A DNA stretch of 59,452 bases from a virus: positions 1-59,452 of the IMG/VR virus record IMGVR_UViG_3300037961_003462; one strand, written 5' to 3'. Positions 2,029 through 45,734 of the stretch are shown in pieces. Each line of letters begins with the position of its first letter. The stretch's first letter is position 1. The position numbers and the translations under genes are program-made. The notes under the pieces are model-generated. The model did not search any database, was not told the origin of the DNA, and saw nothing but the letters and a program-made list of their open reading frames with translations.

Positions 2029-4347
2029 CTATCTTAATAATTGGCTATTACTACCCTTGTTATTATACCTTGCAAAGTTAATCTTTATTTTTGATTGTTT
2101 AACTTCAGGCTTATATAGGTGTTTTTGGTTGGCCATAATCGCTAGCCCCGAACTAATTGACGCATCATACTTTGTCCTGTTGTTTACATCAAACTTTGCC
2201 CAATCTTCTAGAGTTTTCACAAAAGGCATTGAACCTATGTCTCCCATCTCTCTAAACTCTCCTGTCATGTCAAGCCCAACATATTTTTCAATATACGACT
2301 CTATAGCGGATGCGTGAGCCTGTTTTACGTCCTCAGATGAGTTGGGTATGCCCCCTATCTCTCTTTCGGTCTTAGAGAGTTTGTTAGAGGCCTTGTCGGG
2401 CCTGTTCATGGAAAACGCCCTATACCCTCTATTCTTAAAATGATAAAGGAGCCTAGCCTTATTGTTCTCCGCAAGTATTGGCATACCATAAAACACACAG
2501 GCCATAAGCACATCTTCAAAGAACATCTCTGCTGTTTGTGGCCTAGCAATGTACTCTAAGAAAAACTCATTAGAAGGGCCCTCGTCCATGTGAAACTTGG
2601 TAAGCCCATGAAGCGCACCATTAGACGCTCCCCCTCCTACAGTTCCTGATATATCATAAGGGTCGCATCCGAAAGACCCCATGTGCTCGTTGCCAGGGTA
2701 TCTTCTGCCTCCCCTCATAATTACATTATTCTGCAAATGAGCTGGAGGAATCCAAGACAGTAAGAACCTACCGTTATTATCAGGACTCCAAACCACTTTG
2801 CTATCAGGACCATCCTTCCAATAGAACTTACCCCTTGTGACAAAATGCTCCTTTATTACAGAATCATTGTAGTCTATTTGCTGATATATCTTTGTGAGAT
2901 TAAATATAGATGACTTGCTCTCATCTCTGAAAGCATGCGACTCTGTTCTTGGGAACTGACGGTAAAACTCATTTAATGCATTCCCATCAGACTTCAGAGA
3001 CTTCACTTCGTTATCCCAATATGTAATAGCACCCGTAGATATCATCTCGCCATCCACTCCCTCTAGTTCAACGATAGGATCATCAAACACGGGCCACCCA
3101 AACTTGTTTATATACCCCTCGAAGTTCCACTCCATTGGAATAAACAATGAATACAGCCCACTCTTTGTCTGCCCGTTCGGGTTTCTTGTGGAGGGGTCCG
3201 AGTCCATATATAGTTTCTTGAAGTTGTCACCACCCTTGTTCAGTGCGTTACACGTAGACCCCATCATACACTTGCCAACGACACGACTACCTAGCCTCAA
3301 GCAGGTCTTAGTTACACGCCAATTGTTTAGAATGTTCTCAGGCTTATCCCACTTACCACTCTCGTCGTGTATTAGTAGTTTTAGTTTCTCACCATCGTAA
3401 CTATTGTCGGCTGTGTTCTTCCAGTCAATAGTAGTGTCAAGGCCATCCATATCATCGTCCATAACCTCGTGCATGTTCTTCTTTGTAATCTTAGAAGCCG
3501 GAACACGGAACGCCAACTCAGTCTTCGGCTTATCCATACCATCCTGAATAGGCTTAAAGAAAAATGGATAGTTGTTGGCTATCGGTACAATCTTGTCTAC
3601 AAATAGCTTCTTAGCATCACCTCCTGTCTTTGACAACACGCCAAGCCTAGAGTCCTTAGCTAACGTTCCCACATTTACAGACTCTGAAGCACCCATAAAC
3701 GAAAATCCTGAACGCCTAATCTTTAGGTAGCACATACCAAAGCACCTCTTATCCGCCTTGCAGGCCTCCCAGTATATGAAGAATATTCTATTGGCCTCTC
3801 TAAAGTCAGGATACCCAACGTCAATCTTAGTCCACTGCAAGTACATGTAATGAGACCCTGTAAGGTAGGTTGGCTCACCATGGTTCATATACCAAAAACC
3901 ATTCTCTCGGTTATCAAATTCCTGCTCGATATAGTCAACCCACATTGACTTGAAGTCAGACAACATTTCGTTCCATTGAAAGATTGACTTTATCCTATTT
4001 AGTTGTCTAGGATATTCCTTGCGCTCCCAATACTGCTCGTCTTTCTTTTTACTCCTAGAGTAAACATTCTTGGGTTGTTCGGGTAGACCTATAATAAGTC
4101 CATTAATATTGTACACCTCCCCTAGCGTACCATCTTTTGAGATGATTATAATATCGTACTTTTCGTCGTAGCCATACTTCCAGCTCTTCCCCTTGTTCTT
4201 TTGTCTTATGACTTGCTTGGGGATGCCTGAGTCTACAACTCGATATAAACTATTTTGACCTTCGTTCAGCAAATCCTCTAGTTGAACTTTTAACTTCGTT
4301 AAGTGCCTCTTTCTCCGCCTCGATTCTTGATAGTATCTCAAACGCAT
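2029..4347 (-). CDS. terL: Terminase large subunit
   Basis: This 772-residue protein is the ATP-driven packaging motor and headful nuclease. The ATPase half has a degenerate Walker A-like region around RRSGFSFMGASE, without a classic GKS/T, as in crAss-like terminases. It has a clear Walker B (LKLLIHDES) and a coupling-type motif (MGSTCNALNKGG). The C-terminal RNase H-like nuclease shows acidic positions at SFGCDPYD and ILAENN. The gene lies between the small-subunit candidate, which it overlaps by about 100 bases, and the portal, whose ATG follows the TAG stop directly. It is longer than typical TerL (450-600 residues) but within the range for large podoviruses of Bacteroidota. Confidence 0.9.
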   Translation of the reverse strand: MRLRYYQESRRRKRHLTKLKVQLEDLLNEGQNSLYRVVDSGIPKQVIRQKNKGKSWKYGYDEKYDIIIISKDGTLGEVYNINGLIIGLPEQPKNVYSRSKKKDEQYWERKEYPRQLNRIKSIFQWNEMLSDFKSMWVDYIEQEFDNRENGFWYMNHGEPTYLTGSHYMYLQWTKIDVGYPDFREANRIFFIYWEACKADKRCFGMCYLKIRRSGFSFMGASESVNVGTLAKDSRLGVLSKTGGDAKKLFVDKIVPIANNYPFFFKPIQDGMDKPKTELAFRVPASKITKKNMHEVMDDDMDGLDTTIDWKNTADNSYDGEKLKLLIHDESGKWDKPENILNNWRVTKTCLRLGSRVVGKCMMGSTCNALNKGGDNFKKLYMDSDPSTRNPNGQTKSGLYSLFIPMEWNFEGYINKFGWPVFDDPIVELEGVDGEMISTGAITYWDNEVKSLKSDGNALNEFYRQFPRTESHAFRDESKSSIFNLTKIYQQIDYNDSVIKEHFVTRGKFYWKDGPDSKVVWSPDNNGRFLLSWIPPAHLQNNVIMRGGRRYPGNEHMGSFGCDPYDISGTVGGGASNGALHGLTKFHMDEGPSNEFFLEYIARPQTAEMFFEDVLMACVFYGMPILAENNKARLLYHFKNRGYRAFSMNRPDKASNKLSKTEREIGGIPNSSEDVKQAHASAIESYIEKYVGLDMTGEFREMGDIGSMPFVKTLEDWAKFDVNNRTKYDASISSGLAIMANQKHLYKPEVKQSKIKINFARYNNKGSNSQLLR

Positions 4348-14268: not shown

Positions 14269-14342
14269 GCTCCTATAGCTCAACTGGATAGAGCAACTGC
14301 CTTCTAAGCAGTAGGTTTCAGGTTCGAGTCCTGATGGGAGTA
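14269..14342 (+). tRNA. tRNA-Arg (anticodon TCT)
   Basis: A full cloverleaf can be drawn. The acceptor GCTCCTA pairs with TGGGAGT, including two G-U pairs. The D-arm is AGCTCAACTGGATAGAGC, the anticodon stem ACTGC/GCAGT has loop CTTCTAA (anticodon TCT at 14313-14315), and the T-arm is CAGGTTCGAGTCCTG. CCA is not encoded. It reads AGA, a codon favoured in AT-rich phages. It stands at the head of the plus-strand operon, 13 bases before the first gene. Confidence 0.93.
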
Positions 14343-14355
14343 CAGAGAAAAAACT

Positions 14356-16531: not shown

Positions 16532-16651
16532 TGTCTTTGTTTTTGTAAAGGTATAAAATTCACGAGACACCCGTAGTTTTCGGGTTATATATAGATTTTT
16601 TATTTTTTTTTATTTTTTAGAACTGACCCCCCTATTGCGATTTTTTTTACC

Positions 16652-16667
16652 AAACAAACGTTTGTTT
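16652..16667. promoter_or_regulatory. 16-bp perfect palindrome
   Basis: AAACAAACGTTTGTTT reads the same on both strands and sits between T-tracts. It is a likely binding site for a dimeric protein. Confidence 0.5.
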
Positions 16668-16758
16668 TGTAATTTTTGTCGTTTTTATTGGACACCTTGT
16701 TATCGTGTTGATAACTTTATTTTTTTATGTCCTAGATTTTTTGTATTCGTGACGTTCG

Positions 16759-16867
16759 AAGTTTTACGTTCACAATCATCAAAGTTTTGCGCCAAAGTTT
16801 TACGTAAATCATGACCGAAAAGTTCAGCACAAATTCTATTCAATTTTACTTCGACGTTTTACGTTTT
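16759..16867. repeat. Iteron-like AAGTTTTACGT repeats
   Basis: Four direct copies: AAGTTTTACGTT at 16759-16770, AAAGTTTTGCGCC at 16781-16793, AAAGTTTTACGTAA at 16794-16807, and GACGTTTTACGTTTT at 16853-16867. All are on the same strand and none lies in a gene. Confidence 0.55.
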
Positions 16868-17048
16868 TTTCGTCGCACATTTCGATACATAGTATAGCCA
16901 CATTCCACACGTATACACGTACATTTTCGGTCTCCCCAGAAAACATATGTGCATTTTTTTGAAATTTTTTTTACCACTTAATTAATTGAATATCAAAGAT
17001 TTACATCGATTCACTCAATACCTTTTGAAATTTTTTTTTGCAAAAAGG

Positions 17049-17080
17049 TTGCATAAGTGAAAAGTATTCGTATATCTTTG
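17049..17080 (+). promoter_or_regulatory. Bacteroidota-type promoter (TTG ... TATCTTTG)
   Basis: The -33 element is TTG at 17049-17051, followed by a 21-base spacer and TATCTTTG at 17073-17080, an exact TAnnTTTG match. The predicted transcription start is near 17085. It would drive the structured RNA and the genes from 17709 onward. Confidence 0.75.
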
Positions 17081-17084
17081 TATT

Positions 17085-17667
17085 GCATTGCGGAGGTGGG
17101 ATTGGCAAGGTGCTCTAATAATCTTGATATTATTTCTTTTGGTATCTCTAAGGGTTATTAATCACCACTCAGTCACGGAGAAAGCAATATAGTTTTTTAA
17201 CATCTTGAATAGTACACGTTAGGAGAACGAGACCTAGACCAATATGTCACGCAAGGGCATTTAGGCGATAGGGAATATGAAGTACTTTATCGATATCATT
17301 CTTGCCTATGGTCACGCAAGGGCCATGTCAAAAGGTTTGAATGATTGCGTTTGTTGGAGGATAATCCAACAGATAAAAAGGAAAAGATTTAGGAAAAGTA
17401 TTCCGCTATCTAGGTAGGAGTAAATTATCAATGGGAAAGTGTACAACGCTTGTGACGAATGAAGGCGGCGTTAATAGTCATTCACTAGATAGCCAATGGG
17501 AGGCAACATCCGAAAAGGAACACTCAACACGAAAGTTCGAGGTTAAGTTTATCTGTTACTTAGAATATCCCATCACAAGAAAATTATTTCTTAGGTCTTA
17601 CAACCACGCTATGGTTAGTTAATAGAGGTTCGATTCCTCTACGTGGTTCTACATGCAAGACGCATGT
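17085..17667 (+). ncRNA. Candidate large structured noncoding RNA / leader
   Basis: About 580 bases between a strong promoter and the first gene at 17709, without convincing coding potential. Helices visible by eye: two hairpins with the identical 11-base loop TCACGCAAGGG (loops at 17247-17257 and 17312-17322) on different stems; a 7-bp hairpin TGTTGGA/TCCAACA (17352-17371); and a 9-bp long-range helix GCTATCTAG/CTAGATAGC (17405-17413 with 17485-17493) enclosing a possible pseudoknot (17445-17449 with 17468-17472; 17457-17462 with 17478-17483). The 3' end is a tRNA-like minihelix and a 6-bp hairpin. Size and phage context recall GOLLD/ROOL-class RNAs, but I cannot match it to either. Confidence 0.55.
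17602..17649 (+). ncRNA. tRNA-like T-arm/acceptor minihelix 1
   Basis: AACCACG (17602-17608) pairs with CGTGGTT (17642-17648). Between them are a 14-base connector and a canonical T-arm AGAGG-TTCGATT-CCTCT. D- and anticodon arms are missing and no CCA is encoded. A 6-bp hairpin ACATGC-AAGAC-GCATGT follows at 17651-17667. A near-identical element occurs at 18381. Confidence 0.65.
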
Positions 17668-17708
17668 TAGCCGCGCGATTCTGCGCAATTTATTTTAATC
17701 ATTTTATC

Positions 17709-18074
17709 ATGTCAAAAATTAAGACAAACACAAAGAAAGCCGTTTCATTAACCTCTGTTCTCACAAAAGAGCATAGAGATTTCATTAACAAGACCTACCT
17801 TTCACCTAGTGGTCATATGAAGTATTTCATTCATGACGAACTTGGTAAGAAAGCCATTCGTGCTATTGTAAAAGATAGAAACGAAAAATTTGGTACATCA
17901 GTTACGGTTGAGCAAGTACTTGGTAAAGGTAATCCTAGACATATAATGGAATTCATGTCCGACTACCGTAAGAATTCAAAAGATGGAAAACGCAAAGATG
18001 CAATTTCCATGTACTTCTTTATTCAAGCAATTGGTAAGTTTATCGAAAGCAAAAAAGCTGCTAAGAAAAAGTAA
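17709..18074 (+). CDS. Basic protein of unknown function following the structured RNA
   Basis: 121 residues from ATG at 17709 (MSKIKTNTKKAVSLTSVLTK). An upstream in-frame extension to 17643 would overlap the minihelix and hairpin and is rejected. Lys-rich at both ends (C-terminal ESKKAAKKK), with helices such as KHRDF-like EHRDFINKTY and GKKAIRAIVKDRNEKFG. Monocistronic: it follows the structured leader and is closed by a strong terminator at 18104. High basicity suggests nucleic-acid binding, possibly the leader RNA itself, but that is inference. Confidence 0.75.
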   Translation: MSKIKTNTKKAVSLTSVLTKEHRDFINKTYLSPSGHMKYFIHDELGKKAIRAIVKDRNEKFGTSVTVEQVLGKGNPRHIMEFMSDYRKNSKDGKRKDAISMYFFIQAIGKFIESKKAAKKK

Positions 18075-18103
18075 GACTACCAGACTTCAGACGATTTTTT
18101 GAT

Positions 18104-18127
18104 AGGGACATTTATGTCCCTTTTTTT
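18104..18127 (+). terminator. Rho-independent terminator
   Basis: AGGGACAT-TT-ATGTCCCT hairpin followed by a run of T, 30 bases after the stop of 17709-18074. Confidence 0.85.
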
Positions 18128-18166
18128 ATGCCCTATAGTTAGGGGATTTTTTAACGTGGAATCATT

Positions 18167-18179
18167 TTCACACTCACTA
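18167..18179 (+). promoter_or_regulatory. Shared upstream motif TTCACACTCACTA, copy 1
   Basis: This 13-mer lies 9 bases before the ATG at 18189 and recurs exactly at 22703-22715, 10 bases before another ATG. Probably a shared translation or transcription signal. Confidence 0.4.
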
Positions 18180-18188
18180 TTTATTACT

Positions 18189-18371
18189 ATGACAAATTTT
18201 ATTTTCTCAAGTTCTGTTCAGTTGAACAGACATTTAGACATCCTTGAAGAAGCAAGGGAGACTCGCCTGGCGGAAATCCGTGAAGAAGCAGACCGCCAGA
18301 TCACCATGCTTATGGCACAAATAGGCGAAGTAGACTTAGGTGAATTAGGTCTAGTCGAATGGGACGTTTAG
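18189..18371 (+). CDS. Small acidic coiled-coil protein
   Basis: 60 residues from ATG at 18189 (MTNFIFSSSVQLNRHLDILE). An in-frame extension to 18099 would read through the terminator hairpin and is rejected. The centre (EEARETRLAEIREEADRQIT) is a clear coiled coil. It lies between a terminator and the second tRNA-like minihelix. Function unknown. Confidence 0.6.
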   Translation: MTNFIFSSSVQLNRHLDILEEARETRLAEIREEADRQITMLMAQIGEVDLGELGLVEWDV

Positions 18372-18380
18372 GCGTACCAA

Positions 18381-18425
18381 AACCACGTTTGGAATAAATA
18401 GAGGTTCGATTCCTCTGCGTGGTTC
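18381..18425 (+). ncRNA. tRNA-like T-arm/acceptor minihelix 2
   Basis: AACCACG (18381-18387) pairs with CGTGGTT (18418-18424). A 12-base connector leads into the T-arm AGAGG-TTCGATT-CCTCT. It is followed by the hairpin AACGTACA-ATGG-TGTGCGTT (18426-18445). Compared with copy 1 the connector and following hairpin differ in sequence but keep pairing. It starts 9 bases after the stop of the previous gene. Confidence 0.65.
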
Positions 18426-18459
18426 AACGTACAATGGTGTGCGTTATAAATCAGAATCT

Positions 18460-18657
18460 ATGTATAAAATAGCACGTTTTTTTAATTCGCTAAACTACGT
18501 CTGCATACTTGGTGTGTGCTATATGGTGTTAAGCGAAATCGATTATTGTAAGAATGCAGGAGAACAATTTGATTTGCTCTTCAATGCACTCTTAATCTTG
18601 ATGGCAGGGCAGTACTTCCGTATTGTCAGTTTATTAATCTTAAAAGGAGAGCAATGA
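18460..18657 (+). CDS. Small membrane protein
   Basis: 65 residues from ATG at 18460 (MYKIARFFNSLNYVCILGVC). Two TM segments are predicted (NYVCILGVCYMVL and LLFNALLILMAGQYFRIVSLLIL). An in-frame GTG at 18439 would lie inside the hairpin and is unlikely. It opens a chain of overlapping early genes. Confidence 0.6.
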   Translation: MYKIARFFNSLNYVCILGVCYMVLSEIDYCKNAGEQFDLLFNALLILMAGQYFRIVSLLILKGEQ

Positions 18658-44891: not shown

Positions 44892-45734
44892 CGGATTACT
44901 TTTCATTTTGTCCGTTTCTATAGCATACAGCTCAATAAGTGCTTGAGAGTCCATGTCTATTTTAGTAATCATATAGTGACCTGTTAGTCCATGAGACTCG
45001 TCATCTGTTGCAGGATCTGGAACAGAGTATATAAAATTACCACTAGATGCCGCTGACCCTCCTGTTGTTGTTATGGTGGTAGTCGTGCCTGATTGTGTAA
45101 TCGCAGTAACAGTTCCCAAGAACGTGGGAGTTTGGTTTGGCGTTTCAACAGCGTTGCCATCGTTGTCTAAATCAGTCAATGTTCCAGACGTTAATATCCT
45201 GTCGCCTATGCCAACCATACTATTTATACTCGCCAAGTCAAATTGTATACTATTCGCTACAGTATTGGCGTTACAAACACCTATACCTTGAGCAAACCGC
45301 ATATCCACCTGAGTATCTGTTATGGGCTGTCTTATGTATGAGTAGAATGAGTTTTCTTTCTTCTCGAACTGGTCAGAGCCCACAGTCCCATTGTGAAGGT
45401 CAGTAGTTGTAGTTGCCGCCAATGATCCTCCAACAGGAACGGTAGCACTAACCCTAATGGCCTTATATATATCAGCCTCTATTGGCTTTTCGTTAAATAC
45501 AGTTTCTATGTATGGAGTAGTAAACGGAGTAATACTTGTGTCTCCGTCTGTGTTCTCCTCTAAATAAAATGTAGCCCTTAGGCTTGCCTTTTGGTTGTGT
45601 ATGTTGATGTTGCCATTCTTAAACGTAAAGAAGTCGCTATTCATCCCAATCATAAATTCAGGATTGTACCCATAAAATGAAGGCCACCCCCCTCTATCCG
45701 GTAAACTAGGGCTATATGTTACTGTGTACGCCAT
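44889..45734 (-). CDS. Virion structural protein
   Basis: 281 residues, beta-rich. The start MAYTVTYSPSLPDRGGWPSF then YGYNPEFMIGMNSDFFTFKN is typical of tail proteins next to amidases in Bacteroidota podoviruses. A module with GIGDRILTSGTLTDL and FLGTVTAITQSGTTTTI resembles the recurring beta domain of this phage. Overlaps the amidase by one base. Probably a tail component. Confidence 0.65.
   Translation of the reverse strand: MAYTVTYSPSLPDRGGWPSFYGYNPEFMIGMNSDFFTFKNGNINIHNQKASLRATFYLEENTDGDTSITPFTTPYIETVFNEKPIEADIYKAIRVSATVPVGGSLAATTTTDLHNGTVGSDQFEKKENSFYSYIRQPITDTQVDMRFAQGIGVCNANTVANSIQFDLASINSMVGIGDRILTSGTLTDLDNDGNAVETPNQTPTFLGTVTAITQSGTTTTITTTGGSAASSGNFIYSVPDPATDDESHGLTGHYMITKIDMDSQALIELYAIETDKMKSNP

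Follow-up and report, generated by a model that had tools for sequence, protein, structure and literature searches.

In mitochondria, transfer RNAs (tRNAs) located between coding genes free the messenger RNAs (mRNAs) from a polycistronic transcript, an arrangement known as tRNA punctuation. The long non-coding RNA MALAT1 owes its 3' end to a tRNA-like element (MALAT1/mascRNA), in the TMER of MHV68 hairpins follow directly after the tRNA-like element, and acceptor/T-stem minihelices are the classic minimal substrates of RNase P, for which the C4 RNA of phages P1 and P7 is a natural phage substrate. Plant mitochondrial t-elements, which are tRNA-like structures at mRNA ends, are cut by RNase P and RNase Z and CCA-tailed, and are not aminoacylated (PMC11658184). 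Here, two mini-tRNA elements, each built of an acceptor stem and a T-arm, are described in the 59,452 bases of IMG/VR virus record IMGVR_UViG_3300037961_003462 (the whole record, referred to below as the window), together with a family of similar elements from many unrelated phages.

The known systems differ from the phage elements in several respects. The units of mitochondrial punctuation are functional tRNAs, whereas the phage elements cannot decode; MALAT1 and TMER are eukaryotic or herpesviral, cloverleaf-like, represented by single sites or RNA polymerase III genes and without homology; the RNase P model minihelices are artificial, and C4 is one antisense RNA without mini-tRNA anatomy. 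Compared with t-elements, the phage elements are minimal, covary freely, number up to 15 per genome and are paired with a downstream hairpin, and their cleavage is only predicted. Cluster K mycobacteriophages also carry repeated start-associated sequences (SAS/ESAS), with inverted repeats upstream of actinophage genes; these, however, are 17-bp imperfect repeats with a common sequence consensus, and the passages that deal with them describe no T-loop/acceptor anatomy (PMC3203893). No earlier description of such elements was found in the open-access literature (subscription papers being outside the scope of that search), and the tRNA and intergenic passages of the genome paper of Streptomyces phage Endor1, one of the carriers, mention nothing like mini-tRNAs; 41 tRNA genes are credited there to another phage, Coruscant (PMC7650747).

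Two mini-tRNA elements in the window

Element 1 (17602..17649, plus strand) spans positions -1 to 74 in tRNA numbering. Its acceptor strands AACCACG (17602-17608) and CGTGGTT (17642-17648) enclose a 15-nucleotide (nt) connector, CTATGGTTAGTTAAT, and the T-arm AGAGG-TTCGATT-CCTCT (17624-17640), with a single A before the 3' acceptor strand and C74 after it at 17649. Element 2 (18381..18425, plus strand) has the same acceptor strands (18381-18387 and 18418-18424) and the same T-arm (18400-18416), with a connector of 12 nt, TTTGGAATAAAT, a single G before the 3' acceptor strand and C74 at 18425. Both combine a 7-bp acceptor with a 5-6-bp T-stem and a canonical 7-nt T-loop, and both lack a D-stem and an anticodon arm. 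Element 1 is followed by the hairpin ACATGC-AAGAC-GCATGT (17651..17667, plus strand), with a second small hairpin, GCGC-GATTCT-GCGC, further downstream, and element 2 by the hairpin AACGTACA-ATGG-TGTGCGTT (18426..18445, plus strand). An earlier note on this DNA, made from the letters alone, had proposed two T-arm/acceptor minihelices without D- and anticodon arms, each followed by a hairpin that differs in sequence but still pairs and then by a gene, and all of this was borne out at both sites; its connector length of 12-14 nt holds for element 2 but falls short for element 1. Three features go beyond that note: the conserved GG of the connector, one more base pair or near-pair between T-stem and acceptor, and a conserved non-coding RNA of about 515 nt that ends at element 1.

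A structure descriptor run over the window gave exactly two matches, elements 1 and 2, and none in shuffled sequence. Neither element was called as a tRNA by ARAGORN, and both stayed below every Rfam threshold, including that of the tRNA model RF00005. With model R1, which includes element 1, the two scored 56.2 and 65.5 bits, respectively, and element 1 scored 37 bits with R2, a covariance model made from 27 diverse family members and built without it.

Evidence for a conserved RNA fold was provided by the sister phage 3300025127_000033, whose DNA aligns with that of the window without gaps right up to element 1. At that place the sister phage reads AACCGTG-gacGGtcttta-CTAAAG-TTCGACT-CTTTAG-CACGGTT-C, then TGTGCAATATTGCAC, so that the acceptor (AACCGTG/CACGGTT), the T-stem (CTAAAG/CTTTAG) and the downstream hairpin are all rewritten and all still pair. 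As this copy was located by its position and not by pairing, the comparison is a clean test of covariation. Element 2 is identical in the sister phage. A third relative also holds two elements, with acceptors AACTATG/CATAGTT and AACCACG/CGTGGTT, which flank a stretch of about 460 nt without a long open reading frame. The argument of the earlier note that pairing kept despite changed sequence points to function is strongly supported, both by the rewriting in the sister phage and by covariation across the family, and a search of related phages, as it had suggested, found the 5' acceptor strand kept and covarying.

A phage family between stop and start codons

Of nine stretches returned from IMG/VR by a degenerate pattern, eight form the structure, and no tRNA was called by ARAGORN or Rfam in the seven pattern-scan loci; one pattern match was rejected as chance in GC-rich sequence. 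A second scan with the connector motif TTTGGAA gave at least 120 stretches. When the descriptor was applied to all sequences gathered, 98 unique elements were obtained. Ten overlap ARAGORN tRNAs; the other 88, defined by the lack of such overlap and perhaps including a few chance matches, comprise 50 distinct acceptors and 40 distinct T-stems from 53 loci. A first descriptor with wide spacing had also taken in tRNAs and tRNA halves, which were removed with ARAGORN. Shuffled controls for the pattern and descriptor searches gave no matches, by which a chance origin of the elements was ruled out. Among the 27 diverse members covariation reached 0.823, whereas shuffled pairings gave 0.176 and slid ones no more than 0.205; the first value is descriptive only, because pairing had been the criterion for choosing these members.

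In most members the connector has 12 nt (12-15 nt overall), and a GG lies near its 5' end, mostly at index 3. This GG was present in at least 47 of 52 matches when the scan did not require it; the exceptions comprise two apparent false positives, one tRNA half and two cases (L094 and L157) in which the GG sits slightly further in. In tRNAs, G18 and G19 of the D-loop dock on the T-loop and so form the elbow. Because the near-invariant GG sits where these residues dock, the elements look like the "top halves" of tRNAs with the elbow kept, and they have in common with tRNA an acceptor/T-arm stack, a TTCRANN T-loop and a D-loop-like GG. C74 follows N73 in almost all members, and two elements of L094 (4475-4521 and 2690-2736, minus strand) show exact tRNA numbering with A73 and an encoded CCA. 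The acceptor and T-stem sequences differ even among copies within one phage, and it is therefore the shape that would be read and not the sequence. No match to a tRNA family was found, in a comparison that did not search parental tRNAs singly, and the acceptor and T-stem sequences are many and unrelated. A different tRNA-like sequence, with the D-arm kept and the anticodon arm missing, was seen in L052 (9046-9101).

The usual order is a stop codon, about 9 nt, the mini-tRNA, often a hairpin and then a start codon. The preceding stop typically lies about 9 nt upstream and sometimes overlaps the first bases of the element, and the next ATG follows at a median of 36 nt downstream, so that, as with t-elements, a tRNA-like fold is found at mRNA borders. 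Within the gp45-gp62 block of Mycobacterium phage Send513 (JF704112), each of the 12 gaps that measure 33 nt or more holds an element, and the descriptor found none in the other annotated gaps of this phage; the same is true of every one of the 8 gaps of 80 nt or more in the left-transcribed block of Endor1 (MT711978). A hairpin of at least 5 bp stands behind 47 of the 88 elements, compared to 20 expected by shuffling, and differs in sequence each time. In many phages, and for most elements of Send513 and Endor1, the hairpin is followed by a Shine-Dalgarno-like sequence and a start codon. One marine phage group of 20 IMG/VR contigs has the element directly behind the HK97-type major capsid gene, including a contig in which capsid identity falls to 38% and the acceptor differs. 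For the RNA fold, the conservation of GG and C74 and the constant stop-to-start placement, the evidence is direct or strong.

In whole records, R2 matched 15 times in Send513 (two matches being weak or partial), 9 times in Endor1, 10 times in IMG/VR 2974630753 and 5 times in each of two others, and Cellulophaga phage phiST and Gordonia phage Sephiroth hold one or two elements each. The elements of Send513 and Endor1 carry no RNA-feature annotation in their records. Among 84,980 prokaryote genomes, the AAC-type pattern gave 24 stretches, none of which forms the element by a pairing check; the single descriptor match proved to be a full tRNA, located elsewhere in its contig. In a covariance search of genomes from Bacteroidota (296) and Actinomycetota (198), the weak matches were for the most part 3' portions of genuine tRNAs, chiefly those for Leu. 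At three actinobacterial loci, in bacterial contigs, the mini-tRNA fold is formed with the connector ATGGTCGCAGG, and one Bacteroidota match was counted neither as a tRNA part nor as fold-forming. Bacterial genomes hold at most rare copies of the element. Across about 80 GP88-bearing phage loci that had not been picked for the element (1.09 Mb), it was present in the window's own group only, and it is therefore common in certain phage lineages and not universal. The patterns fixed the T-loop and the connector motif, which biases the estimates of prevalence and host range and makes them minimum values; hosts were assigned from named isolates and from gene content.

Several further candidates were set aside. 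BLAST matches in Stenotrophomonas, Caulobacter and Pseudomonas phages fell inside annotated tRNAs or at tRNA-size spacing, and a match in Klebsiella phage Miami has an annotated terminator at its site and no model match. In Prochlorococcus phage P-GSP1, a weak, possibly degenerate element with the T-loop TGCGATT (model E 0.003) was observed at about 4000-4040, just behind psbA.

Predicted cleavage and competing explanations

A sequence-free shape, an intact elbow and a position between stop and start suggest the enzymes that recognise tRNA by its acceptor/T-stack and elbow. RNase P measures from the elbow along the acceptor/T-stack (PMC4919913), and human RNase Z contacts the acceptor, the T-arm and the elbow (PMC11996679). 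On balance we lean towards the mini-tRNAs serving as "tRNA punctuation" between cistrons, with host RNase Z, RNase P or both making the cuts, and of the roles offered by the earlier note a processing signal for these enzymes fits the anatomy best. The element would act as a minimal tRNA mimic within the phage mRNA, made up of acceptor, T-arm and a D-loop-like strand whose GG is docked on the T-loop, and host tRNA end-processing enzymes reading the elbow and the shape of the acceptor/T-stack would cut the polycistronic transcript at this site. RNase Z would cut after N73 (between 17648 and 17649 and between 18424 and 18425), and/or a 5' cut by RNase P would fall near 17602/17603 and 18381/18382. 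After the 3' cut, the upstream RNA would end in a tRNA-like cap, possibly CCA-tailed, and the downstream mRNA would start with a 5' hairpin, which should slow 5'-end-dependent decay; a cut at element 1 would also set the 3' end of the leader RNA of about 515 nt. Cutting by RNase Z after N73 is favoured, because it leaves the mini-tRNA as the upstream 3' end and the hairpin as the downstream 5' end and so would explain why they occur together. The RNase P cut is possible but less certain, since CCA is usually not encoded (PMC12710915). More tentative, and slightly less likely than not, is the wider proposal of a previously undescribed phage RNA class, in which anticodon-less mini-tRNAs would subdivide the operons of phages that infect Bacteroidota, Actinomycetota and other hosts, and host-enzyme cuts would cap upstream 3' and downstream 5' ends and release the leader.

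Several observations weigh against processing by these enzymes. The RCC(A) 3' motif matters for the E. coli RNase P RNA with model substrates (PMC12710915). The full CCA is usually not encoded, most members having C74 only and no C75-A76, and the paired A(-1)-U(73) of window-type elements is an atypical configuration for RNase P. The helix ranges between 11 and 13 bp, a clear downstream hairpin is missing from about half of the 88 elements, and the stand-alone minimum free energy (MFE) structure of element 2 favours an inner fold other than the T-arm form.

Some of the family's positions would also suit a stabiliser or insulator that is not cut by tRNA enzymes, in which minihelix and hairpin block exonucleases or separate translation units. 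The elements follow stop codons and, in the marine group, a highly expressed capsid gene; in L094 plain hairpins fill the same slot before other genes of the operon, and in L091 the element closes an operon, with a terminator-like hairpin after it and then a convergent gene. A plain stem, however, needs no TTCRANN T-loop, docking GG or C74, and these are conserved where the stems vary freely, so that we regard this explanation as unlikely, if still credible. Another alternative is translation control, in which the mimic would attract a factor of the ribosome-, EF-Tu-, CCA- or T-arm-modifying-enzyme type that helps re-initiation downstream. Start codons do lie a short and fairly constant distance downstream, and the acceptor/T half of tRNA is contacted by several tRNA-binding factors, but the L091 element precedes a convergent gene where an operon ends, element 1 of the window lies where a long leader ends, and the variation of acceptor identity elements within one phage speaks against charging by a given synthetase; such a role appears improbable. 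A synthetase-specific mimic based on aminoacylation identity is disfavoured and was set aside, as acceptor pairs vary freely within a single phage. The interpretation of the earlier note is supported in part, most strongly in its case for function through pairing.

A counter-defence decoy or sponge, in which tRNA-like RNAs without an anticodon loop occupy or mislead host defences that target or sense tRNAs, would accord with the phage-specific distribution, the multiple copies and the absence of an anticodon arm to cut; yet a decoy has no need to fill nearly every gap in phase with stop and start codons or to sit behind the capsid gene, and we give it very little credence. A DNA-level role, as gene-cassette boundaries or attachment-site (att) remnants in accessory-gene recombination, was already disfavoured and retains scarcely any plausibility, for although the Send513 and Endor1 arrays lie in early/accessory regions, the T-arm half resembles tRNA 3' ends that serve as att sites and a putative integrase-like gene lies near the L093 element, copies within one genome share little sequence, the TTCRANN loop, GG and C74 are RNA-strand specific and run in the direction of the neighbouring genes, neither acceptor strand has been lost, the site behind the capsid gene is fixed in 20 contigs, and the AAC-type pattern brought up no element from prokaryote genomes. 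An origin as degenerate tRNA genes or as att remnants was likewise rejected on account of the covarying 5' strands, the many different copies and the phage enrichment. An att remnant would be a tRNA 3' end beside an integrase without its matching 5' strand, whereas here that strand is present and covaries; with up to 15 different copies per genome, this objection, foreseen in the earlier note, fails.

The leader RNA, its setting and the meaning of the elements

The RNA upstream of element 1 is a conserved, structured, non-coding leader of about 515 nt (17087..17601, plus strand, 5' end approximate) that ends at the element. It aligns gap-free with the sister phage, and the two phages have no long open reading frame in common. 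Its fold z-score is -2.15, and in the MFE structure predicted from the window alone all nine doubly changed pairs still pair in the sister phage, against about 1.6 double changes expected by chance (159 pairs, 10% substitution), in a test of two sequences. A further 13 pairs are changed on one side, and 6 of these still pair; the predicted fold is therefore right only in part. No Rfam family matched the leader at the gathering threshold or at E<=5, including GOLLD and ROOL. These are large structured non-coding phage RNAs often found near tRNA genes (PMC12286853) and are comparable in kind, whereas the neighbour of the leader is an anticodon-less mini-tRNA. A similar layout of promoter, leader (about 290 nt), mini-tRNA and early operon was seen in L094.

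Upstream of the leader lies a promoter-like sequence of Bacteroidetes type (TTG ... TATCTTTG; 17047..17081, plus strand), read from the sequence and kept in the sister phage, which we take to match the consensus. The first gene past element 1, gene A (17709..18074, plus strand), encodes a basic protein of 121 amino acids that is 95% identical in the sister phage and has no match in PHROGs or Pfam. Gene B (18189..18371, plus strand, 60 amino acids) ends in a stop codon 9 nt 5' of element 2, and gene C (18460..18657, plus strand), the first gene past that element, encodes a membrane-like protein of 65 amino acids. The best named relatives of the window's large terminase and primase are Podoviridae sp. 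ctfjg026 (MW202828) and the Flavobacterium 'elemo' phages, and the host is therefore probably a member of Bacteroidota.

Other features were observed nearby. The region 16600-16960 is AT-rich, non-coding and contains repeated AGTTTTACGT-like words, making it a candidate origin or regulatory region. A tRNA-Arg at 14269-14343 is supported by both ARAGORN and Rfam, and a tRNA-Gly called by ARAGORN at 45119-45201, inside a long opposite-strand open reading frame and without Rfam support, is probably a false positive. In MW202828, the closest named relative of the window, positions 560-720 contain two tRNA-like stretches whose anticodon region is odd or absent.

Because the elements have no anticodon arm, they are overlooked by tRNA finders, and gene finders see short gaps only, so that cultured phages, Send513 and Endor1 among them, have carried a recurrent RNA element without annotation. 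The descriptor or the covariance model makes mini-tRNAs searchable in any phage genome, and the cut-site prediction is exact to the nucleotide. If cleavage occurs as proposed, phages would co-opt the essential tRNA-trimming enzymes of the host to format their mRNAs, and the elements would be compact natural tools for operon splitting. This would be a bacterial counterpart of mitochondrial tRNA punctuation and of the plant t-elements, and would provide a shape-coded, sequence-free route from polycistronic RNA to stable monocistronic mRNAs.
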